Virus record (IMG/VR): IMGVR_UViG_3300042992_001218
Location: 1-27,060 of that record
From: a virus
DNA: 27,060 nt
Direction: 5' to 3' (one strand)
Of this stretch, positions 3,608 through 27,060 are shown one piece after another. The notes beneath the pieces are model-generated. The model made no database searches, was not told where the DNA came from, and worked only from the letters and a program-made list of their open reading frames with translations. The first letter of the stretch is position 1; each line of letters begins with the position of its first letter. A program made the translations under genes and the position numbers.

Positions 3608-5566
3608 ATGCCTCTCCACATATACACACCTGGCGTAAAAGTTCCGAGCGGTTTAGAACCAGTAAATCCCATTCCAGTTGACTCTTGGTCTGGTCCTTAT
3701 GTTGGTAGTTCCACTGCTGCTGCTATTTCACTGGCAAACAGCACAATTCCTGCTTCCCTGCGATTCTTGTCACTTGAAGCACGAATTCTTGCTCCCGATC
3801 CAGACAATGCTGGTCAAACTCTTGCATACAAGTACTGGTATCGTGGAAGTACAGCAAATGATGGACTTGTAGAATTCTCTTCTGCTTCTTCCACTTCCAC
3901 TGGTTCTGGTGTAACACTAGCAGTTGCTGGCGCAGGAATTGTGCTGTCTCCCGCAGGAGGAACAGGAACAGTTACATTCATCAATAATGGTGTGTTGTCG
4001 TTCAACGGCAATACAGGTGCTGTTACAGGTGCATCGCTTGGTGCAAACACCTTTACGGCAAGTCAAACAATTTCGGGTTCATCTGCTTCCTTAACAGTTA
4101 CAAACACTAACAATACTGCGACTTCAGAGTATACTAGCAGCGGTATAAATGTATCTTATGGTCCTGGTTCACAAACGATAGCGTATGGTCTTTCAGTTCC
4201 TGGAAATACTGTAACATTTCCTGCATATTCAACAGTACTTGCAGGACTTGCAGGAACACAGACCTTCAGTGGAACAAATACTTTTACTGCAATTTCAAAT
4301 TTTAATGCAGGTATCACTACAGCATCCATCTACTCTTCCACAGGATCCACATTTGCTGGAACCCTAAAAGTAGTTGGCGGAGCCACCTTTGATGCACGAG
4401 TTGATGTTGGTGGTGTTCTTGAGGTTGCTGGTGGTGTCACATTAGAACACACTCTTAATGTGACTAGTGTGGCTAAATTCCATAGCAATGTTATTCTCGG
4501 CGATGAGATTACGGATAGCATAACCGCAACAGGAACTTTTCTAGGTCTAACTTCTAGTGGTCTGCTTATAGCAAATGCAGGTATTACTACAGCATTCATC
4601 TACGCTTCTACAGGTTCTACTTTTGCTGGAACCCTGAAAGTAGTTGGTGGAGCAACATTTGACTCTACTACGGATCATGGTGGTGTTGCACGATTTACCG
4701 CAGGACTCACTACTTCCTCCCTTGATGTTCAGGGTGTTTCCAAGTTTGCAGGTGGAGCAACATTCGCTTCGTCTGCTAATTTTGCTGTGGGTCTTACCTC
4801 TAGCGGAGATGTGGTTGTTGGTTCTGCTGGCACCGTACTCAAGACAAACGGCGATGTCACCATTGGTGCCACCCTCACGGTGAACGGCAACTTCTTTGTT
4901 GCAGGAACACTGACCACGGTTAACCAAACCACTCTTCAAATTGACGACAAGACTATTACTCTTGGTAGAACCCTTGACAATGATAATCTTGCAGACGGCG
5001 GCGGACTGATTCTGAACGCGAATACAGACAGAACACTCCTCTGGAATTCAGTCAGTGATGCGTGGACTAGCAGTGTTAATTATAATGTTGCCACTGGATA
5101 CGGCTACAAGATAAACAACACCACAGCCCTTGCTTCAGGCATGGTTCACGGGTTGAGTGCTTCGGCAGGAATAATTACTGGTGGTACATGGCAAGGAAAC
5201 TCAATTGGTCTTGCCTACGGTGGAACAAACAAGGATCTTGCTGCTGTGGGTGCCTCTGGTGGTGTGGTGTACAAAGACGGAACAGGACTAACGATTACCG
5301 CTGCGGGAACAGTTGGTCAGATTCTCCAAGCAAACAGCAGTGGTGCACCTGTATGGGTTAACACTACTTCCCTCACAGGAATCACAGCCGACAGAGTTAA
5401 AACCAACGACACGAATTCGGGCATATACTACCTTACATTCGTGGCGGGTGCTTGTGCTTCCACAGATCTGCTTGTTGATACCGCCGCAGGAGTAACTTAC
5501 AATGCTGCATCGGGTGTACTGTCTTGTGTACAGTTGGAAGCACTTGTTGACGGTGGTACATTTTGA
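3608..5566 (+). CDS. Modular tail fibre protein (652 aa) with shared C-terminal region
   Basis: This is a repetitive beta-rich fibre. The N-terminus (MPLHIYTPGVKVPSGLEPVN) differs from the RBP-like module of its neighbours. An SFNGNTGAVTGASLGANTFT block lies near residues 136-155. Two copies of a STGSTFAGTLKVVGGATFD block lie 270 bp apart (about 4311-4400 and 4581-4670). Residues about 420-520 carry NGNFFVAGTLTTVN, IDDKTITLGRT and ADGGGL, a block seen in many marine phage structural proteins and again in the 779-aa fibre. A TGGTWQG/YGGT segment follows, and the protein ends LVDGGTF. It starts 6 nt after the 512-aa gene with no obvious Shine-Dalgarno. It is directly followed by a small coiled-coil gene. 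The fibre role is inferred from repeat type and context. Confidence 0.75.
   Translation: MPLHIYTPGVKVPSGLEPVNPIPVDSWSGPYVGSSTAAAISLANSTIPASLRFLSLEARILAPDPDNAGQTLAYKYWYRGSTANDGLVEFSSASSTSTGSGVTLAVAGAGIVLSPAGGTGTVTFINNGVLSFNGNTGAVTGASLGANTFTASQTISGSSASLTVTNTNNTATSEYTSSGINVSYGPGSQTIAYGLSVPGNTVTFPAYSTVLAGLAGTQTFSGTNTFTAISNFNAGITTASIYSSTGSTFAGTLKVVGGATFDARVDVGGVLEVAGGVTLEHTLNVTSVAKFHSNVILGDEITDSITATGTFLGLTSSGLLIANAGITTAFIYASTGSTFAGTLKVVGGATFDSTTDHGGVARFTAGLTTSSLDVQGVSKFAGGATFASSANFAVGLTSSGDVVVGSAGTVLKTNGDVTIGATLTVNGNFFVAGTLTTVNQTTLQIDDKTITLGRTLDNDNLADGGGLILNANTDRTLLWNSVSDAWTSSVNYNVATGYGYKINNTTALASGMVHGLSASAGIITGGTWQGNSIGLAYGGTNKDLAAVGASGGVVYKDGTGLTITAAGTVGQILQANSSGAPVWVNTTSLTGITADRVKTNDTNSGIYYLTFVAGACASTDLLVDTAAGVTYNAASGVLSCVQLEALVDGGTF
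4393..4441 (+). repeat. 49-bp block identical to 8038-8086
   Basis: The two copies, in the 652-aa and 779-aa fibre genes, are identical over 49 bases and encode ARVDVGGVLEVAGGVT. Flanking bases are also similar (STGSTF-type codons upstream) but diverged, which points to a conserved module or recent gene conversion between the fibres. Confidence 0.85.
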
Positions 5567-9186: not shown

Positions 9187-9705
9187 ATGGAAAGCAAGAA
9201 CCCGAACGAAACTATTTTGATTCCCCTTCTAAACAAGCGACTCACTGATCTTGTTGTTGCAAATATTTTAACTGAAGCCAAGTTACTGTACTGCGAAGAA
9301 GAGAAAACAGAACTAAAAACACTGTTGGAGAAAGAGCAGACTGCGGCAAAGCAGTTTGTTGAAGACAACTCATCTGCTTTCTCCAAAGCACTGCAAGAGC
9401 AAACACAAAGCATTCGTGATACCTGTGAGCAGGAAAAAAATGCTGTGCAACAGGCTGCTGAACACAGCAAGCAAGAAATTGCTAAAAATTGGGCGCAAGA
9501 ACTTGCAACCCAAACAGGAAACCTGAATGCAAGGATTAGTGCCTTAACGGCAGAACTCCAATCATCCAATCAAATGGTTAGTTCTCTTCGCAAAGAGATC
9601 GAGGAGTTAACGGTACCAGTCGTTGTTGTGGAGGAAAAAACTACCCCACAACCGAAGCGAAACAGCAAAAAACTGGCTCCTGCAATGAGTAGTGATACCT
9701 ACTAA
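9187..9705 (+). CDS. Coiled-coil protein (172 aa), paralogue of the 71-aa gene
   Basis: A strong Shine-Dalgarno AAAGGAG precedes the ATG. The N-terminus NPNETILIPLLNKRLTDLVV, then AN and EAKLL, matches the start of the 71-aa gene at 5608. The middle (residues about 35-140) is almost wholly charged or polar helix with heptad-like leucines and alanines (TALTAELQSSNQMVSSLRKE-like spacing). The C-terminus is basic and proline-containing (PQPKRNSKK). There is no signal peptide or membrane segment. It lies between the 779-aa and 1037-aa fibres and probably shares their transcript. No enzyme family is recognised. A fibre chaperone, molecular ruler or trimerisation factor is an inference from position and coiled-coil content. 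Confidence 0.7.
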   Translation: MESKNPNETILIPLLNKRLTDLVVANILTEAKLLYCEEEKTELKTLLEKEQTAAKQFVEDNSSAFSKALQEQTQSIRDTCEQEKNAVQQAAEHSKQEIAKNWAQELATQTGNLNARISALTAELQSSNQMVSSLRKEIEELTVPVVVVEEKTTPQPKRNSKKLAPAMSSDTY

Positions 9706-9708
9706 ATA
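9701..9708 (+). promoter_or_regulatory. T4-late-type promoter candidate (ACTAAATA)
   Basis: ACTAAATA matches the TAAATA core of T4-type late promoters and overlaps the stop codon of the 172-aa gene. The predicted start, 6 nt after the element, is 9714, directly at the AGGAG that precedes the TTG start of the 1037-aa fibre. The motif is short, so chance occurrence is possible. Confidence 0.35.
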
Positions 9709-9726: not shown

Positions 9727-12700
9727 TTGGCAACACAAATTCAAATCAAGCGTGGCTCTACCACTCCAGCAGGACTAACTGTTGGCGAAAGTGCCATGAA
9801 CACGAGCACCAACCAAATCTACTTGGGTGGAACGGGTGGAACTGTTTTGGTTGGTGGACAAGTCACGGGTGGTGTAGACATGGGTGCAGGTTCGGCTGTT
9901 TCTGCCAATCGCATTCCCACACAGAGTGGTGTCTACAACTATGTTCGCAATAGTACTGTTACTTCGTTTAATGGACTCACAGGAGCCGTGGGTGGTGTGT
10001 GTGCAGCGCAAGCAAACACCTTTACCGCACTACAGACATTCACGGCAGGTATTTCCGCTGCGGGTGGCATGACGCTTGACGGCGGCAAGGTGTGGCACTC
10101 CCTAAATGACGGAATCACATCTGGTCTTGATGCAGGATTGGTTCACGGCGTGTGTGGTTCTAGATTCTTGGAGAACCTACAGACAGGTCTGCTGTACGGT
10201 GGACTCATTAGTGTGAACGCAGGAAATACTGCACAAGTGAATATTACCGCAGGTGCAGGAATGGTTGTTTCTCCTGGAGCATCACTCACAGCATACCCCA
10301 TTCCCACAGTTACACCTGTTACATGGGCAGCAAAAACAGGGGTCACCCTTGCTGGATTGACTAGTAGTGACGAAACATGGCTTGCTATTGATAGCAGTGG
10401 CAATCTTGTACAAACGCTTGTTGCATTTACTGATGCACAGTACTCTTCACAGATTCCCCTTGGCGCAGCACTTCACTCGTCGCGCACAAACATTCAGTTG
10501 ATCAAGGGATATCCCCATGTTTCATATGGGCAACCAGAGCAGTTTGATCCGTTTATTCGTGCATTCGGAAACTTGAAACTATCGGGACACGAAATCTCTG
10601 CAAACGGAGCAAACCTAAATGTGAATCGCAGCGCAGGAAAAGCGTATGCGATGGGAAGAAACTACAGCAACGATCCAAACAATCCCAACATTGTTACCGA
10701 TACGAGTGCTGCTCCTGCAACTGGAATATATCGTTTCTATCGCAACGGAAGTGGTGCATTCACTACCGTTATCAACTCAGCAATTGATCCAAGCAAGTAC
10801 GATAACGGAACAGGCACTCTTGCCACCACCACTTCTGCAAAGTTTACGATTCAGCGACTGTTCTATCTGCCTGATCAGCCAACTTTGTTGGGTGTGTATT
10901 ACGGAAGACAAGAGTACAATTCCATTGCGGATGCACAGGCAAACATTCCATTTGAATCGTTTTCCGAAAGTGAGTCTACGGCAACACAGGGCATTTTCTG
11001 TGGATGGCTCATAGTTCAAGGAAACTGCACAGCCTTAAACGACACAGCCGATGCCAAATTTGTTAATGCAGGGCTGTTTCGAAACACTGCAAATATTGGT
11101 GGTGGTGGTCTTGCAATTGCGTCTATTGACGACTTGAATGATGTTACAACAACCACACCATCCAACAACCAAGTGCTTCGATGGAACAACGGCACAGCAC
11201 AGTGGGTAAACAGTGATGTTTCTTCCTTGGCTGTTTCGTCCTTTAATGGACTCACTGGCGCAGTTACAGGTGTCACGGTGGGTGGTGCAAACACCTTTAC
11301 AGCACTCAATACTTTTAATGCAGGTATCTCTGCTGCGGGTGGTGTAACCCTTGCAGGAACCCTCCAAGGAACGACAGGATCATTCTCTAAACTGCTGACT
11401 CTTTCTGATGGATTGAGTGCTGCGGGTGGTTTTACAGTTGGTAACGATATTTCTGTTTTTGGTATTAGAGTTGGCAGAGGAAATCGAGGTGCTTCCGCAG
11501 GAGGAGATACAAATCTTGCTGTGGGAGCCAATGCTCTTAAATCTGTTATTCCAAATCCAGGCTCATATGCAGGAATACAAAATTTAGCATTCGGAACGAG
11601 TGCATTAGAATTGACGACATCAGGTGGATATAATTCTGCATTTGGTACTGAGGCATTATATACCAATACTAGTGGTAATGGTAATATTGCTTTCGGTGTT
11701 CATGCACTAAGACTAAACACATCTGGAGCAGAGAACTGTGCTTTTGGTGGTGGACCAATGTATCAGAACACAACTGGTGGATACAATACTGCCATTGGAA
11801 GTTTAGCATATTATTACAAAAGTACAGGCAGTTATAATGTTGCCGTAGGATTTCAGGCAGGATATAATTTTGGTACTCCAAGATCTGGTAGTAATGTAAC
11901 ATCTGCAACTAACTGCACACTAATCGGTACTTATGCTACTCCTTTGACCAGCGGATCAACAAATGAAATTGTCATTGGTTATGATGCAATTGGTAAGGGC
12001 AGTAACACGGTTTCGATTGGAAACAGTTCAATTACTGCTACACACCTAACAGGACTTGTAAATATTTCTTCTGGTCTGAGTGCAGCAGGTGGTGCAACCC
12101 TCGGTTCACGAGTTGATATTACTGGTATTCTTGATGTTGTTGGTGGTGCCACAATGGAATCCACTCTTGATGTGGTGGGTGTTTCTAGATTTGCTGGTGG
12201 CGTGACTTTTGCAGGAACACTTCAAGGAACAACAGGCTCATTCTCTAAACTGCTGACTCTTTCCAATGGATTGAGTGCTGCGGGTGGAGTAACATTTGCA
12301 GGTGATATTGCAGTCAACGGTGGTGATATTACTACTACAAGTGCCACTGCAACTCTTTACAACACAACTGCAACTACTGTAAATATCGGTAATGCTGCTA
12401 GTACAGTAGGTGTAATGGGTGCAACAGCAGGTGCTAGATTGAACATTGGATCTAATTCTTATGTTAAAACTGGTTCTAAAAATACAACCACTACAACAAA
12501 ACAAGAGATTTTTTCGTATATAGCGGTAGCACCACCCCTTGCCGACACATATTTTGCTGACATAATTATTACTGCCAACTACGGTGGTAGTATTGCTGGT
12601 AGTATTAGTTCACAAATTACAAAAATGTTAGTTGCTACCTCTTATAATACAGCCATAAACCATACAGAATATGGAAATGTCAATACTGCTGGAAATTTGG

Positions 12701-13766: not shown

Positions 13767-14167
13767 TGTTTCCATCAAAGGTAGGTTTTCACTCCTCTAT
13801 TCTTACTCCGAGGCTGACCAGTACTCTTGTGGCTTTGAGCAGAAGCGTAAACAATTACGGTACGATTGGGTATGTTCTCATCGGTAACATAAACAAGCGT
13901 GAAAGATTTTTCGTAACAACAACGAATGCTAACATTACAGTTCAAATAGAAACTACAAGCACATCAGCAAATCCCTTTTTTGTGATTACAGGAACAAATG
14001 CGTTTGCTACTCCTATTGAATTAAAAATCAACAATGGAGAGTATATTCATATTGGTGTAAAAGGATCCGTTGTAGGTACTGGAACTTTATCCTTGCGTTC
14101 AAATAGTTCTACAGGAACAGTTTTGGCAAGCGTTGCATACACCGTTATCACTGGTGGCAGACCCTAA
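13766..14167 (+). CDS. Small beta-rich probable virion protein (133 aa)
   Basis: The start is taken as ATG 13766, which overlaps the preceding stop (TAATG, 1 nt), with GGAGG at 13749-13753. An in-frame ATG further upstream lies inside the previous gene and is less likely. The product is rich in T, N, I and V with alternating patterns (FFVTTTNANITVQIETTSTS) and has no signal peptide or membrane helix. It is the last gene of the fibre block and is followed by a 22-bp repeat and a hairpin. No family is recognised. Virion association is inferred from coupling to the 307-aa gene. Confidence 0.6.
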   Translation: MFPSKVGFHSSILTPRLTSTLVALSRSVNNYGTIGYVLIGNINKRERFFVTTTNANITVQIETTSTSANPFFVITGTNAFATPIELKINNGEYIHIGVKGSVVGTGTLSLRSNSSTGTVLASVAYTVITGGRP

Positions 14168-14187
14168 ACCAAATAATCATCCGAATA
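14166..14187 (+). repeat. 22-bp direct repeat, copy 1
   Basis: The repeat overlaps the stop codon of the 133-aa gene and recurs exactly at 14540-14561. It is followed directly by a small stem-loop. The core is CCAAATAATCATCCGAATA. Confidence 0.9.
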
Positions 14188-14204
14188 TTTCTCTTGTAGA
14201 GAAA
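14188..14204 (+). other. Stem-loop after repeat copy 1
   Basis: A 6-bp stem TTTCTC/GAGAAA with a TTGTA loop sits directly after the 22-bp repeat. No good U-tract follows, so termination is doubtful. Confidence 0.45.
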
Positions 14205-14217
14205 GACAATTTGAACC

Positions 14218-14247
14218 TTGACTAAATTTCTTCTTACGGTATAAATA
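14218..14247 (+). promoter_or_regulatory. Promoter upstream of the 84-aa gene (late TATAAATA; also sigma70-like)
   Basis: TATAAATA at 14240-14247 is an exact T4-type late promoter element, and its predicted +1 is 14253, the A of the ATG. The same bases also fit a sigma70 promoter: TTGACT at 14218-14223, a 16-nt spacer and TATAAA at 14240-14245. Either reading places the transcript start at or next to the start codon. Confidence 0.6.
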
Positions 14248-14252
14248 ATAGT

Positions 14253-14507
14253 ATGACTACCCACCACCACATCACAGAAACACCAGAAATTCGTCTTCAG
14301 AATGACATTAGTGCAATGTACGACAGTGTAAATTTGATAAACGAATTAATAGCAAACAATCAACATTCTGATGAAATCCATGATACTATTAGCAGAAATG
14401 TAGATCATCTTGGTGTTATGTTAACCCGACAAAATATCATAGACAATAACACAGTCACCACAGATTTTGATGCTGCCATTACGAATGGTAATCTATTTAT
14501 TGTCTAG
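14253..14507 (+). CDS. Small acidic, lysine-free protein of unknown function (84 aa)
   Basis: The product has a His-rich start (MTTHHHITETPEIRLQNDIS) and is helical, acidic and contains no lysine, cysteine or tryptophan. It has no membrane segment or recognised motif. No Shine-Dalgarno is present; the ATG sits exactly 5 nt after TATAAATA, so a leaderless mRNA is plausible. The gene is bracketed by two copies of a 22-bp direct repeat and followed by a strong terminator, making it an isolated transcription unit between the fibre block and nrdJ. Small acidic phage proteins are sometimes inhibitors or DNA mimics, but nothing here proves that. Confidence 0.6.
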   Translation: MTTHHHITETPEIRLQNDISAMYDSVNLINELIANNQHSDEIHDTISRNVDHLGVMLTRQNIIDNNTVTTDFDAAITNGNLFIV

Positions 14508-14539
14508 GTTGTGGTCTTCACTACTTTGCACTAAACGCA

Positions 14540-14561
14540 AAACCAAATAATCATCCGAATA
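14540..14561 (+). repeat. 22-bp direct repeat, copy 2
   Basis: Exact copy of 14166-14187, 374 bp downstream. It lies 32 nt after the stop of the 84-aa gene and 4 nt before the terminator stem. Confidence 0.9.
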
Positions 14562-14565
14562 CTTT

Positions 14566-14589
14566 AGAGGGGCGAAAGCCCCTCTTTTT
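14566..14589 (+). terminator. Rho-independent terminator
   Basis: AGAGGGGC (14566-14573) pairs perfectly with GCCCCTCT (14578-14585) around a GAAA tetraloop, followed by TTTTT. This is a canonical intrinsic terminator. It closes the 84-aa unit and separates it from nrdJ. Confidence 0.92.
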
Positions 14590-14591
14590 GT

Positions 14592-14597
14592 TATAAT
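14592..14597 (+). promoter_or_regulatory. Possible -10 element (TATAAT) for nrdJ
   Basis: TATAAT lies just after the terminator and 40 nt before the nrdJ ATG. The expected -35 position falls in the GC-rich terminator stem and does not match, so any promoter here would need an activator or phage factor. Confidence 0.35.
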
Positions 14598-14637
14598 TCG
14601 CTCTACATACTCTACCTAATCAACACAGGAGTTCGCT

Positions 14638-16557
14638 ATGAAATCACTTCCCACGCTGTACCAATCGTTTATCCACCTGTCCCGCTATTCCCGTTGGCTT
14701 GACACCGAAGGGCGGCGTGAGTCATGGGAGGAAACAGTTGACCGCTATTTCCGCTTCTTTGATGAACACTTTGCGGAAAAGGGTGTAAAACTAAATAAGA
14801 CTATACGCGATGAGTTGCGTGATGCAGTTTTAAATTTGCAAGTAATGCCTTCTATGCGTTCTCTAATGACCGCAGGAGAAGCACTGAAGCGTGACAACAC
14901 GGCAGGATACAACTGCTCGTATGTTGCCGTAAACAAGGTTCGTGCCTTTGATGAGATTCTGTATGTTCTCATGTGTGGCACAGGAGTCGGCTTTAGTGTA
15001 GAAAGGCAGTATGTTGAAAAACTTCCTACAATTGCTGAAGAGTTTACACAAAGCGATACGCTCATTGTGGTCAAAGACTCCAAAGAAGGTTGGGCAAAAG
15101 CCTACCGCGAGTTGGTGTCCCTACTTATTGGAGGTCAAATCCCCCGATGGGACACCTCTAAAATTCGTCCTCTTGGTGCGCGTCTCAAAACTTTCGGTGG
15201 ACGCGCAAGTGGACCGCAACCACTGGAAGACCTCTTCCGATTTACCGTCAGTACTTTTAAGAAGAGTGCTGGCAGAAAACTCACATCTATCGAATGCCAC
15301 GACATTATCTGTAAGATTGCGGAAATTGTCGTGGTCGGCGGAGTGCGTAGATCTGCTCTTATCTCTCTCTCGAACCTCACCGATGAGCGAATGCGTGATG
15401 CTAAAGTGGGGCAGTGGTGGTTGGAAAACCCACAGCGAGCGTTAGCCAACAATTCGGTTTCATACAAAGAGAAGCCAGAGATTGGCGTGTTCATGGAAGA
15501 GTGGCTGTCACTCTACAAGTCCAAGAGCGGCGAACGCGGCATCTTTAATCGTCAGGCTGCACAGAAAACTGTGGAGAAACTTGGTGATCGCCGTGACCCT
15601 ACCTACGAGTTCGGAACCAATCCGTGTTCAGAAATCATTCTGCGTGACAAGGAGTTCTGCAATCTGAGCGAAGTTATTGTTCGTGCAGACGATACTCCTG
15701 AAACTCTAAAGCGCAAGATTCGTCTGGCTACAATTCTTGGCACATGGCAAGCCTCTCTCACCAACTTCCCGTACTTGTCAAGTGAGTGGAAGAAGAACTG
15801 CGAAGAAGAGTGCTTGCTTGGTGTTTCTCTTACAGGCATTCTTGACAACAAACTCATGCGTGATCAGGGTGCTGAATTGGAAAGACTGCTTGCGGGTCTT
15901 CGTGCCACTGCTGTTGAAACCAACAAGGAGTGGGCAAAGAAGATTGGTATTAATCCTGCTGCTGCGATTACTTGCGTGAAGCCTAGTGGAACGGTGTCTC
16001 AGTTAACTGATTCCGCAAGCGGTATTCACGCTCGTCACAACGAGTACTACATTCGTACTGTTCGTGCAGATCGCAAGGATCCCATGTGTCAGTTTATGAT
16101 CGACAAGGGTTTCCCTGCTGAACCGTGTGCCATGCGTCCTGATCACACAATGGTGTTCTCGTTTCCGCAGAAGGCAGTGGGATCGGTGACTCGCACAGAC
16201 TTGACTGCTATTGCTCATCTAGAGTTGTGGCTCACCTATCAGCGGCACTTCTGTGAACACAAGCCGTCCATCACCGTGACTGTCAAGGAGTACGAGTGGA
16301 TGGCGGTGGGTGCGTGGGTGTACGATCACTTTGATGAAGTGTCAGGTGTGAGTTTCTTGCCCCACTCCGATCACACCTATGTTCAGGCTCCGTATCAGGA
16401 CTGCACCAAGGAAGAGTACGAAGCAGCAGCAGCAAAACTGCCCCTGTCTATTGATTGGAGCGAGTTGACAAAGTACGAAAAGGAAGACACTACCAAGGGC
16501 ACACAAACCTTTGCGTGCAGTGCTGGCTCGTGTGAAGTAGTAGACTTGACTAATTAA
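14638..16557 (+). CDS. nrdJ: Adenosylcobalamin-dependent (class II) ribonucleoside-triphosphate reductase
   Basis: It reduces ribonucleoside triphosphates to deoxyribonucleotides for phage DNA synthesis, using adenosylcobalamin and needing no separate radical subunit. The radical-site motif NPCSE is at 328-332 (radical C330, N328, E332). Redox cysteines are C93 (YNCSYV) and C341 (FCNLSE), and the C-terminal pair C627 and C632 (ACSAGSCE) relays electrons from thioredoxin. The spacings 330-341 and 627-632 equal those of the monomeric Lactobacillus enzyme (408-419 and 731-736). At 639 aa it is about 100 residues shorter than that enzyme. AGGAG at 14627-14631 lies 6 nt before the ATG. It has its own unit after a terminator. 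The family call is firm. Confidence 0.95.
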   Translation: MKSLPTLYQSFIHLSRYSRWLDTEGRRESWEETVDRYFRFFDEHFAEKGVKLNKTIRDELRDAVLNLQVMPSMRSLMTAGEALKRDNTAGYNCSYVAVNKVRAFDEILYVLMCGTGVGFSVERQYVEKLPTIAEEFTQSDTLIVVKDSKEGWAKAYRELVSLLIGGQIPRWDTSKIRPLGARLKTFGGRASGPQPLEDLFRFTVSTFKKSAGRKLTSIECHDIICKIAEIVVVGGVRRSALISLSNLTDERMRDAKVGQWWLENPQRALANNSVSYKEKPEIGVFMEEWLSLYKSKSGERGIFNRQAAQKTVEKLGDRRDPTYEFGTNPCSEIILRDKEFCNLSEVIVRADDTPETLKRKIRLATILGTWQASLTNFPYLSSEWKKNCEEECLLGVSLTGILDNKLMRDQGAELERLLAGLRATAVETNKEWAKKIGINPAAAITCVKPSGTVSQLTDSASGIHARHNEYYIRTVRADRKDPMCQFMIDKGFPAEPCAMRPDHTMVFSFPQKAVGSVTRTDLTAIAHLELWLTYQRHFCEHKPSITVTVKEYEWMAVGAWVYDHFDEVSGVSFLPHSDHTYVQAPYQDCTKEEYEAAAAKLPLSIDWSELTKYEKEDTTKGTQTFACSAGSCEVVDLTN

Positions 16558-16588
16558 AAAATCTGGACATTTTTACTCGACAGCCTCT

Positions 16589-16596
16589 TCTAAATA
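16589..16596 (+). promoter_or_regulatory. T4-late-type promoter candidate (TCTAAATA)
   Basis: The element lies exactly 5 nt before the ATG at 16602, so the predicted +1 is the A of the start codon. The 15 bases from TAAATA through the ATG are the same as at the 84-aa gene (TAAATAATAGTATGA). Confidence 0.5.
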
Positions 16597-16601
16597 ATAG
16601 T

Positions 16602-17366
16602 ATGAAGAGGCGCGTAGTCCAATCTCTTCTGCTGGCTCTAGCACTCGTCTTGCTGCAAGCCTGTGTTCAAGATATAACTGCCGCTGCGCCGAAGAGCGTG
16701 GAGCCGCCGAAGAGCGGGGCAGTCGATCCAATGGCAGAAGCCCCTGTGGAGACTCAGTTCTTCATGAGGGGTTTCTCGCCGTTGGCGGCAGACGAGGAAG
16801 CCGCTGTGGGGCATCTAGAGGGCGAGAACGGGGAGGTAATAGGCAGTGCGGTTCTCATTGCTCCCGATGAAATTCTTACCGCAGGACATTGCCTAGACGA
16901 TACGGGGGCAGCGTGGTTCTCCACTGGCAACCACTGCTACAGAATAATTAAACACACCACCCATCCGTTTTATAAAATTGGTGACACCATGCTGTACGAT
17001 GTGGCGGTGGCGTGGCTAGAGGAACCCTGCGGTGTTCAACCCCTTCGTGTGGTGACAGCACCCCATTATTTCACTCGTACCGAACCACTCACCGTTATAG
17101 GATTTGGTGGGGGCATTAAGCGTAGAAGCAATCCCAACACATTCCACTACTTTGGAACGGTGGTGGAAGACCCCACCTACTTCAAGTTTATTCCCTTTGA
17201 AGGCACCGTTTGGTTTGGTGACTCAGGTGGTGCAGTCATAGATGCCAACGGAGTACTTGTAGGGATTGTGTCATCATTTACTATATTCAACGGTCACCTG
17301 TACGAAAACTCCGCAACTCGTTTGGATCTCGTAAGCGATTGGATCGCAGAACAGAAGGGCAAATGA
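16602..17366 (+). CDS. Lipoprotein-type trypsin-like serine protease (S1 family)
   Basis: This is a predicted exported protease. Residues 1-20 form a signal peptide with a basic start (MKRRVVQ), a leucine-rich core and lipobox LLQA-C21, so the mature protein would be lipid-anchored. A Pro/Ala-rich linker (22-55) precedes a chymotrypsin-fold domain with the full triad: H96 in TAGHC, D133 in YDVAVAWL and S208 in GDSGGA. The domain is about 200 aa, typical for the family. No Shine-Dalgarno is present; the ATG is 5 nt after TCTAAATA. It overlaps a 28-aa membrane peptide gene by ATGA. Secreted S1 proteases are uncommon in phages. It may act in the host envelope during infection or lysis, or have been acquired from a bacterium. 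Substrate unknown. Confidence 0.85.
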   Translation: MKRRVVQSLLLALALVLLQACVQDITAAAPKSVEPPKSGAVDPMAEAPVETQFFMRGFSPLAADEEAAVGHLEGENGEVIGSAVLIAPDEILTAGHCLDDTGAAWFSTGNHCYRIIKHTTHPFYKIGDTMLYDVAVAWLEEPCGVQPLRVVTAPHYFTRTEPLTVIGFGGGIKRRSNPNTFHYFGTVVEDPTYFKFIPFEGTVWFGDSGGAVIDANGVLVGIVSSFTIFNGHLYENSATRLDLVSDWIAEQKGK

Positions 17367-17449
17367 AACTCACCCAAATTCAGCGTGTGCTTCTTGGTGC
17401 TTGCAGTTTTTTAGTTGGTGTTTTACTGGCTCGCGCAGTAGGTTTCTAG
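17363..17449 (+). CDS. 28-aa predicted membrane peptide, coupled to the protease
   Basis: The ATG overlaps the protease stop (ATGA). The peptide reads MKLTQIQRVLLGACSF, then a hydrophobic run through LVGVLLARAVGF, giving one membrane segment after a basic N-terminus. It is too short for standard gene callers. The overlap, membrane character and lack of a competing gene support it. A role as protease partner, mini-spanin or holin-like peptide is speculative. Confidence 0.5.
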   Translation: MKLTQIQRVLLGACSFLVGVLLARAVGF

Positions 17450-17457
17450 TATTGCAC

Positions 17458-17465
17458 CATAAATA
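17458..17465 (+). promoter_or_regulatory. T4-late-type promoter candidate (CATAAATA)
   Basis: The element lies exactly 5 nt before the ATG at 17471, with predicted +1 at the A of the start codon. It is the third case of this arrangement in 3.2 kb. Confidence 0.5.
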
Positions 17466-17470
17466 CTTAC

Positions 17471-18049
17471 ATGATACTAGCGGGAATAGATTACTCATTG
17501 TGTGGACCAGCCGTGTGCCTGTTCAAGTCGAACGCCACGGGGAAATTTTCATACAGTGGATGCTCATTTTTTTTCCTTACTGAGAACAAGCGGCAATCGG
17601 AAATTCGTTGCATGAATGTGTTTGGTGAGCGGCTGAGTGATTGGAACTCAGACGAACACCGCTACGAAAGCATTGCAGATTGGGCTGTGGACATTGTAAT
17701 GGGCTGTTCCCATGTGGCTCTTGAAGGCTACGCGTACTCCGCTAGTGGCAGAGTGTTTCAGATTGCCGAGAACACAGGCATCTTAAAATATAAACTGTAC
17801 CTGTTAAGCATTCCTGTTACGGTGATTCCTCCCACCGAAATAAAGAAGTTTGCCACAGGCAAGGGCAATGCAGACAAGAACGCCATGTACGCGGCGTTCT
17901 CGCATGAAACAGGAGTTAATCTAAAGTCGGTGCTGACACCAAAACGAGCAGACTCAGTGAGTCCTGTTTCGGATATTGTTGACTCGTACTACATCTGCAA
18001 GCGAATGTTTGAATCGCTTCCTGAAGACTTGCGCTGCGAAACCGATTAA
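17471..18049 (+). CDS. RuvC-like Holliday junction resolvase / RNase H-fold nuclease
   Basis: Predicted Mg-dependent endonuclease that cuts branched DNA during phage replication, recombination or packaging. Residues 3-14 (LAGIDYSLCGPA) give the first RNase H strand with D7. ALEGYAYSASGRVFQIAENT near 83-102 supplies E85 and a conserved helix. PPTEIKKFATGKGNADKNAM (120-139) is the lysine-rich DNA-binding segment, and SDIVDSYY (167-174) provides D168 and D171. At 192 aa the length fits the family. There is no Shine-Dalgarno; the start is 5 nt after CATAAATA. Its stop shares TTAA with the convergent lipoprotein gene. The fold assignment is strong; the precise junction specificity is inferred. Confidence 0.82.
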   Translation: MILAGIDYSLCGPAVCLFKSNATGKFSYSGCSFFFLTENKRQSEIRCMNVFGERLSDWNSDEHRYESIADWAVDIVMGCSHVALEGYAYSASGRVFQIAENTGILKYKLYLLSIPVTVIPPTEIKKFATGKGNADKNAMYAAFSHETGVNLKSVLTPKRADSVSPVSDIVDSYYICKRMFESLPEDLRCETD

Positions 18050-18358: not shown

Positions 18359-18796
18359 TTAAGACTTGTTTGAAGCAGCGGCTGAACCAAAGTAGAAGCC
18401 TACAATGCTCACCAAGATTTGACGAGTTTCAGACGCAAACAAGAATCCGTTGATCTCAACAAAATACTTGCGGGTTGATTGCGGAATAAGTCCAAACAGC
18501 CCTTCGGGTGTGGTAGCGTCTACTTCAACGAATGTGGGCAGACCAAAGAACGGCAGAATGAACGGAGCCAGCATAGTAGCAAACAGCACTGCAAGAACAA
18601 TGAGTTGGCGAATGCCCCTACCCACATCCATAGGAACACGCTGTGCTGCCTTGTCTTGGTTCTCTGTGGTCTGCTTGTTGGCAGCAATAAGCCGCTCAAA
18701 GATTTCTTTTTGATCCTGACTCTTCTGAGCCATGTAACGAAACAAGAATCCTGTAGCCGCTCCTCCAACCAATGAAATCAATTCGGTACTAATCAT
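18359..18796 (-). CDS. Three-transmembrane holin-like protein
   Basis: The 145-aa protein has hydrophobic segments at about residues 6-22 (LISLVGGAATGFLFRY), 66-87 (LIVLAVLFATMLAPFILPFF) and 124-141 (QILVSIVGFYFGSAAA). A charged helix (MAQKSQDQKEIFERLIAANK) lies between the first two. The C-terminal FYFGSAAA recalls three-TM holins of gene-transfer agents and related phages. The ATG has GAAAGG upstream. It lies between a proline-rich 60-aa gene and a lipoprotein gene. If a holin, it would time lysis by permeabilising the inner membrane. No endolysin is in the window, so this stays a structural inference. Confidence 0.55.
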   Translation of the reverse strand: MISTELISLVGGAATGFLFRYMAQKSQDQKEIFERLIAANKQTTENQDKAAQRVPMDVGRGIRQLIVLAVLFATMLAPFILPFFGLPTFVEVDATTPEGLFGLIPQSTRKYFVEINGFLFASETRQILVSIVGFYFGSAAASNKS

Positions 18797-18833: not shown

Positions 18834-19016
18834 TTATTTAGGCTTCATCTTCTTCCTACGAGCAATATTTGATTTGAGTCTTGGGTTGCCAGGCGGCATA
18901 TCAGGGGGCAAACCTGCAATGCTGCCGCCTCCTGCGGTGTTTGTGGGTGGCGGCGATGCCATTGGGGGTGGAATTTCTTCGGAAATAAACTTTGAGAATT
19001 TTTTGATTGTAGACAT
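18834..19016 (-). CDS. Proline-rich small protein (60 aa)
   Basis: It starts MSTIKKFSKFISEE, continues with a Pro/Gly/Ala-rich stretch (IPPPMASPPPTNTAGGGSIA) and ends with a very basic tail (RLKSNIARRKKMKPK). AAGGA lies upstream of the ATG, and the gene starts 8 nt after the 1377-aa stop. The short helical KFxxFxxEE start recalls the leader of many T4-like virion proteins. No family is recognised. It could be a minor virion or adaptor protein. Confidence 0.55.
   Translation of the reverse strand: MSTIKKFSKFISEEIPPPMASPPPTNTAGGGSIAGLPPDMPPGNPRLKSNIARRKKMKPK
18835..18842 (-). promoter_or_regulatory. T4-late-type promoter candidate (CCTAAATA)
   Basis: On the minus strand, CCTAAATA overlaps the stop codon region of the 60-aa gene. 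The predicted +1 near 18829 leaves a leader of about 33 nt with a GAAAGG ribosome-binding site before the holin-like ATG. Confidence 0.35.
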
Positions 19017-24026: not shown

Positions 24027-25304
24027 TTACCAGCGCATACCGTACTTGTTTAGTCTGTCTTTAATTGCATGACTTTTAGCACTTTGTTCTGCTCCACCTG
24101 GTAGTGTAGTCCGCTTCTTCATAGTCTTCTTTGGGGTCTTTGCGGCTTCATCCACAACCTTCTTGATGCGCTTGGTTCCCTTGCCGCTTTGATCAGCAAT
24201 GTTTGATCCAAGAGCAGGATCCATGATTGGAAGACCTGTGGTGAATTCTGTGGTTACATCTTCCTTTACAGACTTCTTGGAGCGAAGCATCTTGAAGTCT
24301 TGCGAGTCAAGCCGCTTGTTCTTGTTCGCATCAAGTTTCTTCTGACCGCCAACAAGTTCTTCCTTTACAGACTTCTTGGATCGAAGCATCTTGAAGTCTT
24401 GCGAGTCGAGACGCTTGTTCTTGTTTGCATCCAATTTCTTCTGACCGCCAACAAGTTCTTCCTTGACACCCATAGCCGTCTTGATGCCCTTCACAGCATT
24501 GGCTTGCTTTTTGCCCGTGAGCGAATTGTAGTTCTTGTCGGAACCGTACTTCATGGACGACAGTTGTGATCCACGCTTGGCAACATACGCGTCCTTGGTC
24601 GCCTTGCTCAACTCGTCAATCTGCTCTGCGCCTTCCTTCACTTCCACGCCTTCTTCAGCCATCACAGGCTCTTCCTTTGGTGAAACAAAAGCGGTTACAC
24701 GGTACATGGAGTCATCGCCCAATTCAACTTTAACGGTAAGCGTGAACTCTTGGAATCCGTCTTGGCTACCTGCACGACCATCAAAGCGAATTCCGCCAGT
24801 CAGTGCATCGTATCCATCAACACGACCAAAGCGTGTCAGTGGAAGAGTAAACACACCAACCACAGAACTGTTTTCTCCTGGTGCAGCAGGTGGAACCTGT
24901 GCGTATCCTGACCACACCCGTGGTGTCCACGGGAAGTCAAGCAACAGCACATTGAGTCGTGCACGAATCTTCACCAGTGCATCGGTGGTATTCAAGTACG
25001 AGTACTTTGAAAGAGCATTAAGCATGGCATTGGCGTTGGCAATGAACTGTGCATTGAACTTGAATGCTCCAACATCAGTATCAAGCGAACGATTAGGATA
25101 GCCTGTAAGGGTTTCCTTGTACTCGCTCTCGTTGAGTGTGTTACGGAACGCTTTGAATTGTTTGGTTTCTTTCATGTGCTTTGCCTTTGAAATTTCGATG
25201 GCAGCCAGTTGCTTCTGTGCCTTCTCTTTGGATGGGTGGGTTCCTAGAATCTTGGAACCTGTAGAATCAGTGACTACGAATTTGCTTCCGCTTTTCTTTA
25301 TCAT
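24027..25304 (-). CDS. 425-aa probable virion-associated protein with tandem EF-hand-like repeat
   Basis: Residues 5-42 (SKFVVTDSTGSKILGTHPSK, then EKAQKQLAAIEISK) form a short beta-beta-alpha motif common in phage proteins. FKAFRNTLNE follows near residue 50. Residues about 70-210 are a beta-rich domain (FPWTPRVWSGYAQVPPAAPG, FTLTVKVELGDDSMYRVTAF). Residues 283-315 and 316-348 are an exact protein duplication, each containing DANKNKRLDSQDF, an EF-hand-like loop with D at 1, N at 3 and 5 and D at 12. The C-terminus is very basic (KTPKKTMKKRTT). The ATG follows the previous stop by 3 nt. The function is unknown. A capsid or tail-associated, possibly nucleic-acid-contacting role is inferred. 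Confidence 0.65.
   Translation of the reverse strand: MIKKSGSKFVVTDSTGSKILGTHPSKEKAQKQLAAIEISKAKHMKETKQFKAFRNTLNESEYKETLTGYPNRSLDTDVGAFKFNAQFIANANAMLNALSKYSYLNTTDALVKIRARLNVLLLDFPWTPRVWSGYAQVPPAAPGENSSVVGVFTLPLTRFGRVDGYDALTGGIRFDGRAGSQDGFQEFTLTVKVELGDDSMYRVTAFVSPKEEPVMAEEGVEVKEGAEQIDELSKATKDAYVAKRGSQLSSMKYGSDKNYNSLTGKKQANAVKGIKTAMGVKEELVGGQKKLDANKNKRLDSQDFKMLRSKKSVKEELVGGQKKLDANKNKRLDSQDFKMLRSKKSVKEDVTTEFTTGLPIMDPALGSNIADQSGKGTKRIKKVVDEAAKTPKKTMKKRTTLPGGAEQSAKSHAIKDRLNKYGMRW
24261..24458 (-). repeat. Tandem 2 x 99-bp repeat (EF-hand-like units)
   Basis: Two adjacent 99-bp units (24261-24359 and 24360-24458) differ at six bases, all silent, so both encode the same 33 residues around KKLDANKNKRLDSQDFKMLR. 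Confidence 0.92.
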
Positions 25305-25307
25305 GGT

Positions 25308-26753
25308 TTAGTCTGTTGTTGTGGTTGAACGGTAGTCTGCATCACCTGAGCGGCGGCGTTGACTCGTCTTGGTGTCTTTGGTGCGCCGATCCTTTGCCCA
25401 TTCCATCTTTTTGCCTTTTCCCATACGAGCCATTGGATTTGTTGATCCACGAGCAGGTGGAATAGGCTTGCGAAGTTCTTCGGCGTGTTTGGCGTAGTCT
25501 GCCTTTAGACCCTGAAGTTTTGCAGTAACCCCACTCGCTTCATTCACTTTCTTCTTGACGATAGGTCTTTCTATTTTTCTCGCGTGTTTCAAATCGGCTT
25601 TTAATTCTCGATCCTTGAGTTGATTTGAAGTACTATTTTTTGGGTTGTATTTCAAATCTGGATGTTCTTCAGCGGTTCTTTTGTCTGATGGTTTACCCAT
25701 CATTTTAATTAAGTCAACTCTTCTCATTCTTGCGTGTGCGATCTTAGAATCCCTAAGTCCTTTACTTGAATAATCATCTTCATCAGTAACACGATTGGCA
25801 TCACTTGTTGCTTTACTCTTAATTTTGTCCAACGCGGCTCTTCTTGCAGGAGTAATTCTATAGATTTCAGTAACCTCACTGGCTTCTTTCACTGGCTTTG
25901 GCTTTGGCATCTTTTCGGATTCCATTTCATCGCGCAGTTTACGAGCCTTCTCTCGCGCAGTAGCATTTTCCTTTGGACTCTTGCGGTTCATGGTGGTCAT
26001 GTATTCGTTGAGTTCATTCTGAAGCGCAAAGAATGTTTTTCCTTCGCTCACACTTTTCCAATCGCCGCCTTGTTCGTTGTACCACTTAACAGCCCAACCG
26101 TTGGCGTAGGCAGAAGGGTACACATCAAACTTTGCACGAGCCTTGGATTTTGCTTGTGACCACAGTTCAGGATTTGTTGGCTTGTTCTTTTCCATTAGTT
26201 CTTGTGCGGCTTCAACCAAACCAAACTCGTCCATGCTTTCGGTGTTTGGTGTCTCGAATGATTCCTCAACAGTTTCTCCACCAAGAGTCTTGCGGAAAGC
26301 GTTGAACAGAACAGGTGATCCTGTAATCTTCTTTACCATTGAGTCCATCATGTCAATCATGAGGTCGCGATACACTTTGGATGCACCCATCTTGATGGCT
26401 GTCTCAGGAGACTGCAAAGCGCGGCGAGCCACGATTACATCCTTTTTCTTTACAAGACCACTACGAAGCAGGGTCTTCGTGCGTTCGCCTTCAACACTTT
26501 CGGTGGTGATGTTTGATTCCTTGGACAGACTAGTGCGGAGAGCGGTGTACAGGTTGCGGTTATTCAGTACACGATCCACCACATCCACAAGAATTTCCTG
26601 CATAAGCATACGGTATGCGGGATTCTTCATTGCCTTGTCGGGGTCTTGGAACAGAACCGCTGCACGGCGAATGTTGTTCTTGGAAACAAGACCAAGCCGC
26701 AGCAAGGTGTTGAGTTTCGATGTGATTCCGCTATCGTGTCCGATTCCGTCCAT
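25308..26753 (-). CDS. 481-aa basic protein with internal duplication and DUF5872-type motif
   Basis: Residues about 15-76 and 93-157 are two diverged copies of one helical unit (TLLRLGLVSKNN...LFQDP...LYTALRTSL; TLLRSGLVKKKD...ALQSP...LFNAFRKTL), offset by 78-81 residues. Residues 196-230 carry LWSQAKSKARAKFDVYPSAY followed by ANGWAVKWYNEQGG, a motif found with DUF5872-like proteins in phages and large viruses; its function is not known. The remainder is lysine/arginine-rich with acidic patches, and the end is Ser/Thr-rich. There is no signal peptide. GGGAG lies 8 nt before the ATG, and a TCTAAATA element lies 15 nt further up. It is probably a virion-internal or DNA-contacting protein, which is inferred from charge only. 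Confidence 0.6.
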   Translation of the reverse strand: MDGIGHDSGITSKLNTLLRLGLVSKNNIRRAAVLFQDPDKAMKNPAYRMLMQEILVDVVDRVLNNRNLYTALRTSLSKESNITTESVEGERTKTLLRSGLVKKKDVIVARRALQSPETAIKMGASKVYRDLMIDMMDSMVKKITGSPVLFNAFRKTLGGETVEESFETPNTESMDEFGLVEAAQELMEKNKPTNPELWSQAKSKARAKFDVYPSAYANGWAVKWYNEQGGDWKSVSEGKTFFALQNELNEYMTTMNRKSPKENATAREKARKLRDEMESEKMPKPKPVKEASEVTEIYRITPARRAALDKIKSKATSDANRVTDEDDYSSKGLRDSKIAHARMRRVDLIKMMGKPSDKRTAEEHPDLKYNPKNSTSNQLKDRELKADLKHARKIERPIVKKKVNEASGVTAKLQGLKADYAKHAEELRKPIPPARGSTNPMARMGKGKKMEWAKDRRTKDTKTSQRRRSGDADYRSTTTTD

Positions 26754-26772: not shown

Positions 26773-27060
26773 TTATTTAGACGATTTCAAGTGGCTAGTC
26801 ATGCGGGGGGCGTTTCCTTTTCCGCTTTGCTGTGTTTCTGGTTCAACTCGTCTTTTTTGAATTACAGCGCGTTTTCTCTCTTTGGGAGTCATCTCTCCCA
26901 CCGTCTCAGGGGTCTTGCTGCTTACTTTGTTTAGGGGACGGCATTTAGGGTATTTACCCTTGGAGGTGTCAGAGCGACCACATGGGGGGTACTCCCCTGT
27001 CTTGGGGTCTTTCTTGCCGCCAATGTCCACCCACTTCTCCTTGAACCACTGCGAAAGGTC
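26773..27060 (-). CDS. DUF5872-like small protein (5' partial at window edge)
   Basis: Ninety-five residues are visible. An internal GTG at 27030 could serve as a start, but the frame is open to the window end and the upstream residues DLSQWFKEKWVDIGGKKDP match the expected family N-terminus, so the gene starts outside the window. The pattern WFKEKWVDI, PPCGR, YPKCRPLNKVSSKTP and GEMTPKERKRAVIQKRR is typical of DUF5872 proteins of phages and large viruses. The two cysteines could bind a metal together with partners outside the view. The C-terminal part is basic. No biochemical role is established. It probably shares a transcript with the 481-aa gene, which carries a related motif. Confidence 0.7.
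   Translation of the reverse strand, partial: DLSQWFKEKWVDIGGKKDPKTGEYPPCGRSDTSKGKYPKCRPLNKVSSKTPETVGEMTPKERKRAVIQKRRVEPETQQSGKGNAPRMTSHLKSSK
26774..26781 (-). promoter_or_regulatory. T4-late-type promoter candidate (TCTAAATA)
   Basis: On the minus strand the element overlaps the stop codon of the DUF5872-like gene. The predicted +1 near 26768 gives a 15-nt leader containing the GGGAG ribosome-binding site of the 481-aa gene. Confidence 0.4.

Follow-up and report, generated by a model that had tools for sequence, protein, structure and literature searches.

Putative leaderless late mRNAs from T4-type promoters in a T4-superfamily phage fragment and its relatives

Three genes on a viral DNA fragment of 27,060 bases (IMG/VR record IMGVR_UViG_3300042992_001218, the whole of which is termed the window below) are each preceded by the hexamer TAAATA, which ends exactly 5 nucleotides (nt) before their ATG, and we find the same fixed spacing in front of a conserved set of genes in related phages. 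The best explanation, which we consider very probable and well supported by the sequences while still unproven, is that these elements act as T4-type late promoters and give rise to leaderless mRNAs. An initial annotation of the window had proposed such a leaderless set. Our computational analysis supports that proposal through a peak at the 5-nt spacing in the relatives and in a set of AT-rich phages, its absence from four control phages, and the presence of genes for the late-transcription proteins gp55, gp33 and gp45. It also amends the proposal on two points: in this clade the late box reads CTAAATA, and the predicted leaderless class coexists with a larger class of genes that have a leader and mostly bear a Shine-Dalgarno (SD) motif.

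We posit that host RNA polymerase carrying the phage sigma factor gp55, together with gp33 and the gp45 clamp, would recognize the three elements, and that the position of the promoter would set the start of transcription onto the A of the ATG. The resulting leaderless mRNAs would be translated without an SD, presumably via 70S ribosomes acting on the 5'-terminal AUG. A gene set in this lineage, the pelagiphages and the AT-rich relatives would be built in this leaderless fashion, and for other genes in the same genomes the same box would be followed by a leader, in most cases one with an SD.

Results and discussion

The three sites and the contrast with SD-led genes in the window

All three octamers and start codons lie on the plus strand where the initial annotation had placed them, with a gap of 5 nt in each case. 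The octamer TATAAATA (14240..14247) is followed by the spacer ATAGT (14248..14252) and by the ATG at 14253 of an 84-aa open reading frame (ORF; 14253..14507), the A of which is the predicted +1. The octamer TCTAAATA (16589..16596) stands before the ATG at 16602 of a 254-aa trypsin-like protease (16602..17366; PF13365, E 3.7e-13), whose N-terminus, judged by eye, has a lipoprotein-like signal, and CATAAATA (17458..17465) before the ATG at 17471 of a 192-aa RuvC-like Holliday junction resolvase (17471..18049; phrog_159, E 1.5e-29); both genes are predicted to be leaderless. A search of both strands recovers the pattern TAAATA-N5-ATG three times in the window (at 14242, 16591 and 17460) against 0.17 expected, always on the plus strand and ahead of an ORF, and none of 100 shuffled windows reached three; the bare TAAATA occurs 25 times against 12.8 expected. 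The first two sites had been described as identical over 15 bases from TAAATA through the ATG: the identity of 15 bases (TAAATAATAGTATGA) stands, but just 14 of them fall through the ATG. The 14-mer TAAATAATAGTATG was encountered in at least 120 stretches in a scan of the collection, a count that we did not use.

As annotated, a GGAG-type site is lacking before all three genes, and the intervening nrdJ gene for a class II ribonucleotide reductase (14638..16557, plus strand; phrog_367, E 1.5e-186) provides an SD-led contrast, being preceded by AGGAG. The initial annotation had also ascribed such a site to most fibre genes; among the plus-strand structural genes, SD-like sites stand at 6 of 8 starts (2063, 6761, 9187, 9727, 12843 and, at a rather distant 14 nt, 1630) and none at 3608 and 5832; this tally was made by reading the upstream sequence, leaving out the doubtful starts 90, 5593 and 13733. 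Three further boxes in the window are candidates for leadered promoters: TAAATA at 9703..9708 (plus strand; a late-gene candidate) lies 18 nt before the TTG at 9727 with AGGAG between, that at 18835..18840 (minus strand) 38 nt before the ATG at 18796 with AAGG between, and that at 26774..26779 (minus strand) 20 nt before the ATG at 26753 with GGGAG between. The TAA of each doubles as the stop of an ORF (9187-9705, 18834-19016 and 26773-27030, respectively). Both layouts, the 5-nt and the leadered one, are hence present in the window.

A sharp peak at five nucleotides across related genomes

As the window is a fragment, the genome-wide tests were conducted on its relatives. Genes of the window and of 15 related contigs were called by a simple method based on codon usage, and the distance dN (N being the number of nt separating TAAATA from the start codon) was taken to each ATG that is in frame and no more than 60 nt from the called start; the caller recovered one of the three window starts, so the counts are lower bounds. 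In eight contigs of the clade (G001, G002, G003, G004, G006, G008, G009 and G014), TAAATA is found within 60 nt of ATG starts 179 times, versus 10-69 times for 14 rearrangements of its six bases, and its distances are distributed as 4 at d0-4, 18 at d5, 13 at d6-8, 3 at d9-12, 78 at d13-30 and 63 at d31-60. The scarcity at d0-4 is as expected if a smaller gap cuts off the start codon.

The comparison with shuffled controls that had been suggested for the full genome, run here on the relatives with 200 rounds of dinucleotide shuffles of the upstream 80 nt, shows the clade distances to be sharply concentrated at 5 nt, the opposite of the lack of enrichment that would have spoken against the proposal: 18 versus a shuffled mean of 0.38 and a maximum of 3. 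A pooled AT-rich set (the Pelagibacter phages HTVC008M and Mosig with G005, G010 and G015) has 31 versus 1.5 (maximum 6), and T4, Syn9, phiM12 and Cr30 combined have 0 versus 1.1. By record, the d5 sites among all boxes number 11/49 in HTVC008M, 6/47 in Mosig, 7/62 in G005, 5/23 in G010 and 2/12 in G015, as against 3/73 in P-SSM2, 0/55 in T4, 0/35 in Syn9, 0/23 in phiM12 and 0/8 in Cr30. The 14 same-composition hexamers occur 0-3 times at d5 in the clade contigs, and these together with the shuffles rule out base composition as the cause of the spacing. The raw pattern TAAATA-N5-ATG, counted over 18 contigs, is likewise more frequent than its reversed form (57 vs 18). The corresponding counts are 10 vs 5 in T4 and 6 vs 6 in P-SSM2, and no clear signal over the reversed control emerged in Atu_ph07 (15 vs 9), pf16 (2 vs 0), ACG-2014f (5 vs 2), P-TIM40 (0 vs 1), Vibrio V07 (4 vs 3), PhiW-14 or DLP6 (both 0 vs 0).

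One box in two settings

The base preceding TAAATA in the clade is C at 17/18 d5 sites and at 73/98 leadered sites (d13-45), and since this C is common to the two classes we take them to use one box, CTAAATA. In leadered genes C is rare as the sixth base after the box: it stands there in 6/98 cases in the clade and 8/124 in T4, Syn9, P-SSM2 and phiM12, and a purine in 68% and 73%, respectively. This base is the predicted +1, and in d5 genes its place is taken by the A of the ATG, which bears only indirectly on whether the box spans about -13 to -6. An SD motif (GGAG, GAGG or AGGA at -20 to -5) precedes 82% of the 100 clade genes with a box at d14-60, 46% of the 784 unboxed genes and 0/18 of the d5 genes. 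In the AT-rich set the motif precedes 76% of 84 leadered, 42% of 512 unboxed and 10% of 31 d5 genes, whereas boxed and unboxed genes of T4, Syn9, phiM12 and P-SSM2 do not differ (41% vs 39%).

Conservation among orthologues

The 5-nt spacing is conserved in most orthologues of both the RuvC-like and the protease gene. For the former, the counts cover 77 of 80 fetched loci, 49 of which have TAAATA at d5: 15/15 at 94% or more identity, and 33/47 at 73-90% identity, where spacer and flanks have diverged. The rest of this second group includes five loci with d8, five with d9 and four with TACATA-N5-ATG. At 51-53% identity one of eight loci retains d5 and one has d4; three have the box at 16 nt with AGGAGG and three AGGAGG without a box. 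The orthologues L186-L188 (51-52% identity) start at the ATG that the d5 loci use, there at 16 nt from the box and with AGGAGG in between. At 7 of 19 inspected loci the RuvC-like gene, SD-less and with its box at d5, is accompanied by a divergent, SD-led ORF of 61-83 codons; the two starts are 44-49 nt apart, so that two modes of initiation are predicted within a single short gap.

For the protease, 97 of 105 loci had a readable start (some contigs having been fetched twice, and an in-frame d5 ATG being preferred), and 75 of these 97 comprise 47 cases of TAAATA-N5-ATG and 28 of TAGATA-N5-ATG; in several of the other 22 the true start is doubtful. Protease loci with as little as about 38% protein identity still show d5. 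Profile searches matched the 84-aa ORF to no family, and a tblastn search against the fetched loci gave five matches, the readable ones with identical upstream DNA, and no divergent orthologue. Support from divergent orthologues is therefore limited to the protease and RuvC-like genes.

Genes of the d5 class and their arrangement

Of 20 d5 proteins that were scanned, eight belong to virion families (tail fibre, two tail tubes, DNA end protector, head closure, tape measure, baseplate wedge and wedge initiator), six to non-virion families and six have no match; d5 genes also encode the RuvC-like protein, the protease and short proteins starting MKxFxQ. A fibre gene runs into the window across its left end; in G012 and G001 this gene has a d5 start, at a point equivalent to 37 bases before the window. 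Several d5 genes of G001, G002, G003, G005 and G015 share a protein start like MKSFLQHLQE, which we take to resemble the capsid-targeting sequences of T4; such proteins may be packaged in the head.

None of 49 d5 genes overlaps its upstream gene and 13 are divergent from it, as compared with 15/197 divergent among leadered genes and, among 1304 unboxed genes, 56 divergent and 454 overlapping. The most compact case is provided by HTVC008M, whose 11 d5 genes include gp2 and gp4: their deposited starts (18916, minus strand; 18943, plus strand) are divergent ATGs 26 bp apart, laid out as CAT-N5-TATTTA-N4-TAAATA-N5-ATG. Scanning viral stretches for this layout with the 4-nt middle of HTVC008M, and with HTVC008M and near-identical contigs counted in, we obtained 82 with 5-nt spacers, 14 with both spacers of 6 nt and 3 with 4 nt; both sides stay open, either over 50 codons or as far as the contig extends, in 68/82, 3/14 and 1/3, respectively. 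The gp2/gp4 pair accounts for 23 of the 82 stretches (10 distinct sequences) and for one in the 4- and 6-nt controls, and the remaining 59 include several unrelated gene pairs. Among 23 of 99 layout-bearing contigs, picked by length and all possibly fragments, gp55 was detected in 6/16 with 5-nt spacers and 1/7 (weakly) with 4- or 6-nt spacers, which is weak evidence. Two loci (L430 and L485) have a divergent 26-bp pair whose proteins start MKTYADILVE and MKTMRDIINE; L430 lies within a 240-kb contig in which gp55 was not detected.

Affiliation and late-transcription machinery

The phage encodes DUF7207/phrog_407, common to phages of cyanobacteria, Sinorhizobium, Pelagibacter and Caulobacter; this protein and phrog_159 place it in the T4 superfamily. 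Its near-identical 113-kb relative G001 (nrdJ 100% and RuvC-like protein 99% identical) encodes gp55, gp33 and gp45, and homologues were found in 9, 8 and 9, respectively, of 11 records, the window itself being outside this search. In a small tree of gp45 and gp55, whose deep nodes are weak, the clade falls among T4-superfamily lineages. In an attempt to identify the host with the RuvC-like protein, 19 genome contigs matched a pattern, none of which encodes a relative. As for RNA genes, G001, G002 and G003 have 7, 9 and 10 tRNA genes, and tmRNA genes occur in G003 and G002 (L291 6387-6801 and L275 7885-8237), one marked permuted and the other single-piece.

Weighing the explanations

Several observations speak against leaderless late transcription or soften its support. 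The clade contigs are related, so that their 18 d5 sites are not independent, five representing a single RuvC-like family by blastp grouping, and the d6-8 class, with leaders of 1-3 nt, is raised as well, chiefly in G002. At 34-46% identity none of the seven RuvC-like orthologues has the box at d5, and in five of them a box lies 15-27 nt away. The absence of an SD is partly automatic, as the box itself fills the SD position (-11 to -6). ATG is the start at 49/51 d5 candidates but also at 141/161 at d13-30 (Fisher p 0.11), and we accordingly dropped AUG preference as an additional proof of leaderless mRNA. The folding energy of the first 40 nt is alike in clade d5 and unboxed genes (means -4.26 and -4.29), with no sign of reduced 5' structure in the d5 messages. 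With a helicase, a 2OG oxygenase, two regulators, a phosphoesterase and a starvation-type protein making up the six non-virion members of the scanned 20, and six more unmatched, late timing is not uniform by function. Finally, phiM12 and Cr30, whose hosts (the alphaproteobacteria Sinorhizobium and Caulobacter) are rich in leaderless mRNAs, are without d5 genes, if with only 8 boxes in Cr30; host tolerance alone is hence insufficient to account for the class. Our confidence rests on the spacing, the shared box, the conservation and the divergent layout, and is unaffected by the loss of the AUG argument.

The most serious rival, though an unlikely one, assigns TAAATA at -11 to -6 to translation, as an A/U-rich element of ribosome-binding or Kozak-like type, with transcription starting farther upstream. 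The box does occupy the SD position, and Kozak-like signals for SD-less initiation have been reported in Flavobacterium (PMC6847099). Nevertheless, the left edge of the distribution is sharp, with just four cases at 0-4 nt, and CTAAATA also lies 13-60 nt before genes that are mostly SD-led, for which reasons we disfavour it; moreover, hexamers of the same composition are unenriched at that position, and the gp2 and gp4 ATGs of HTVC008M are only 26 bp apart. That the spacing is instead a by-product of tight packing, with the TAA stop of an upstream gene followed by a start codon, strikes us as the least probable account of all: the TAA is such a stop in 7/49 d5 cases and overlaps ORF stops in the three leadered window boxes, but 42/49 are not upstream stops, 13/49 are divergent, the three window sites are all clear of the stop of the ORF before them, and T4, Syn9, phiM12 and Cr30 show no d5 sites. 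Upstream stop codons are thus largely refuted as the origin of the box.

Several bacteria are known to have leaderless genes whose -10 box lies near the ATG, and, several d5 genes being non-virion, the boxes could conceivably be host sigma-70-type -10 elements for leaderless early transcripts independent of gp55. This too we judge highly improbable, given that CTAAATA is a poor match to TATAAT, that a plus-strand search of the 400 nt ahead of the three genes revealed no sigma-70-like site, that 8/20 scanned d5 proteins are of the virion, and that gp55, gp33 and gp45 are encoded in the relatives.

Other features of the window

The 84-aa gene lies in a 374-bp segment (14161-14564) bounded by 30-nt direct repeats of 90% identity. 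Close relatives (e.g. L206-L208) lack the gene and have a single repeat copy ahead of the same terminator, and because of this the gene with its promoter looks like a recent cassette. A 28-aa ORF (17363-17449), whose ATG overlaps the protease stop, directly precedes the RuvC-like promoter. Two 99-nt tandem repeats of 94% identity (24259-24456) lie within the minus-strand gene 24027-25304, which has a weak dockerin-like match. A scan of the window for Rfam families and tRNAs found none.

Conclusions and comparison with known systems

A broader, quite tentative possibility is that the late switch doubles as a translation switch in much of the aquatic T4 superfamily. The gp55-dependent promoters would then yield 5'-AUG messages for a gene set including virion genes, and 70S initiation would free such proteins from competition for the SD. 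With promoter and start signal spanning only about 13 bp, genes might be gained as small cassettes, even back-to-back over 26 bp. The proposal predicts, to the base, the 5' ends of transcripts of sea and lake phages, and is directly testable, as HTVC008M and its host are in culture. It also implies that SD-based start calling is prone to err in such phages, and the orthologue pairs with and without a leader offer natural material for the study of leaderless translation.

Among the open-access papers that our searches listed, none was seen to describe late genes of a T4-related phage as leaderless. Late-promoter prediction by the method used for cyanophages has been described as unsuccessful in pelagimyophages (PMC7029224), in the main text of which the word "leaderless" is absent; a position hidden in the SD site may explain why these promoters were missed. 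In the methylophage Melnitz, 15 late promoters have been counted (PMC9004378). The pelagimyophages HTVC008M and Mosig are akin to the clade described here in their strong d5 class (11/49 and 6/47 boxes).

In T4, late promoters lack a -35 element and consist of an 8-bp TATA box placed roughly one helical turn before the start (PMC2988020). The clade resembles T4 in the type of box, in the gp55, gp33 and gp45 homologues of the relatives, and in the C-poor sixth base after TAAATA in leadered genes; it differs in that T4 has no called ATG start at d5 (0/55), whereas here a conserved subset is predicted to be leaderless and the box is CTAAATA. The late promoter of the cyanomyoviruses S-PM2 and Syn9, NATAAATA, is a like kind of box served by the same machinery (PMC2984593). 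Syn9, however, has no d5 sites and its boxes are mostly 20 nt or more away, and P-SSM2 has just 3/73 at d5.

Beyond the T4 superfamily, 375 leaderless mRNAs are listed for Caulobacter and 171 for S. meliloti, with AUG preferred (PMC4117421, PMC9031893), and a statement in PMC5312081 terms phage transcripts often leaderless. With these the messages predicted here would share a 5'-terminal AUG, but they would depend on a late sigma and clamp system, and their orthologues vary in having a leader or none. The middle and late transcripts of the Thermus phage P23-45 are leaderless, a likeness to the late leaderless RNA predicted here, in an unrelated phage with another transcription scheme.

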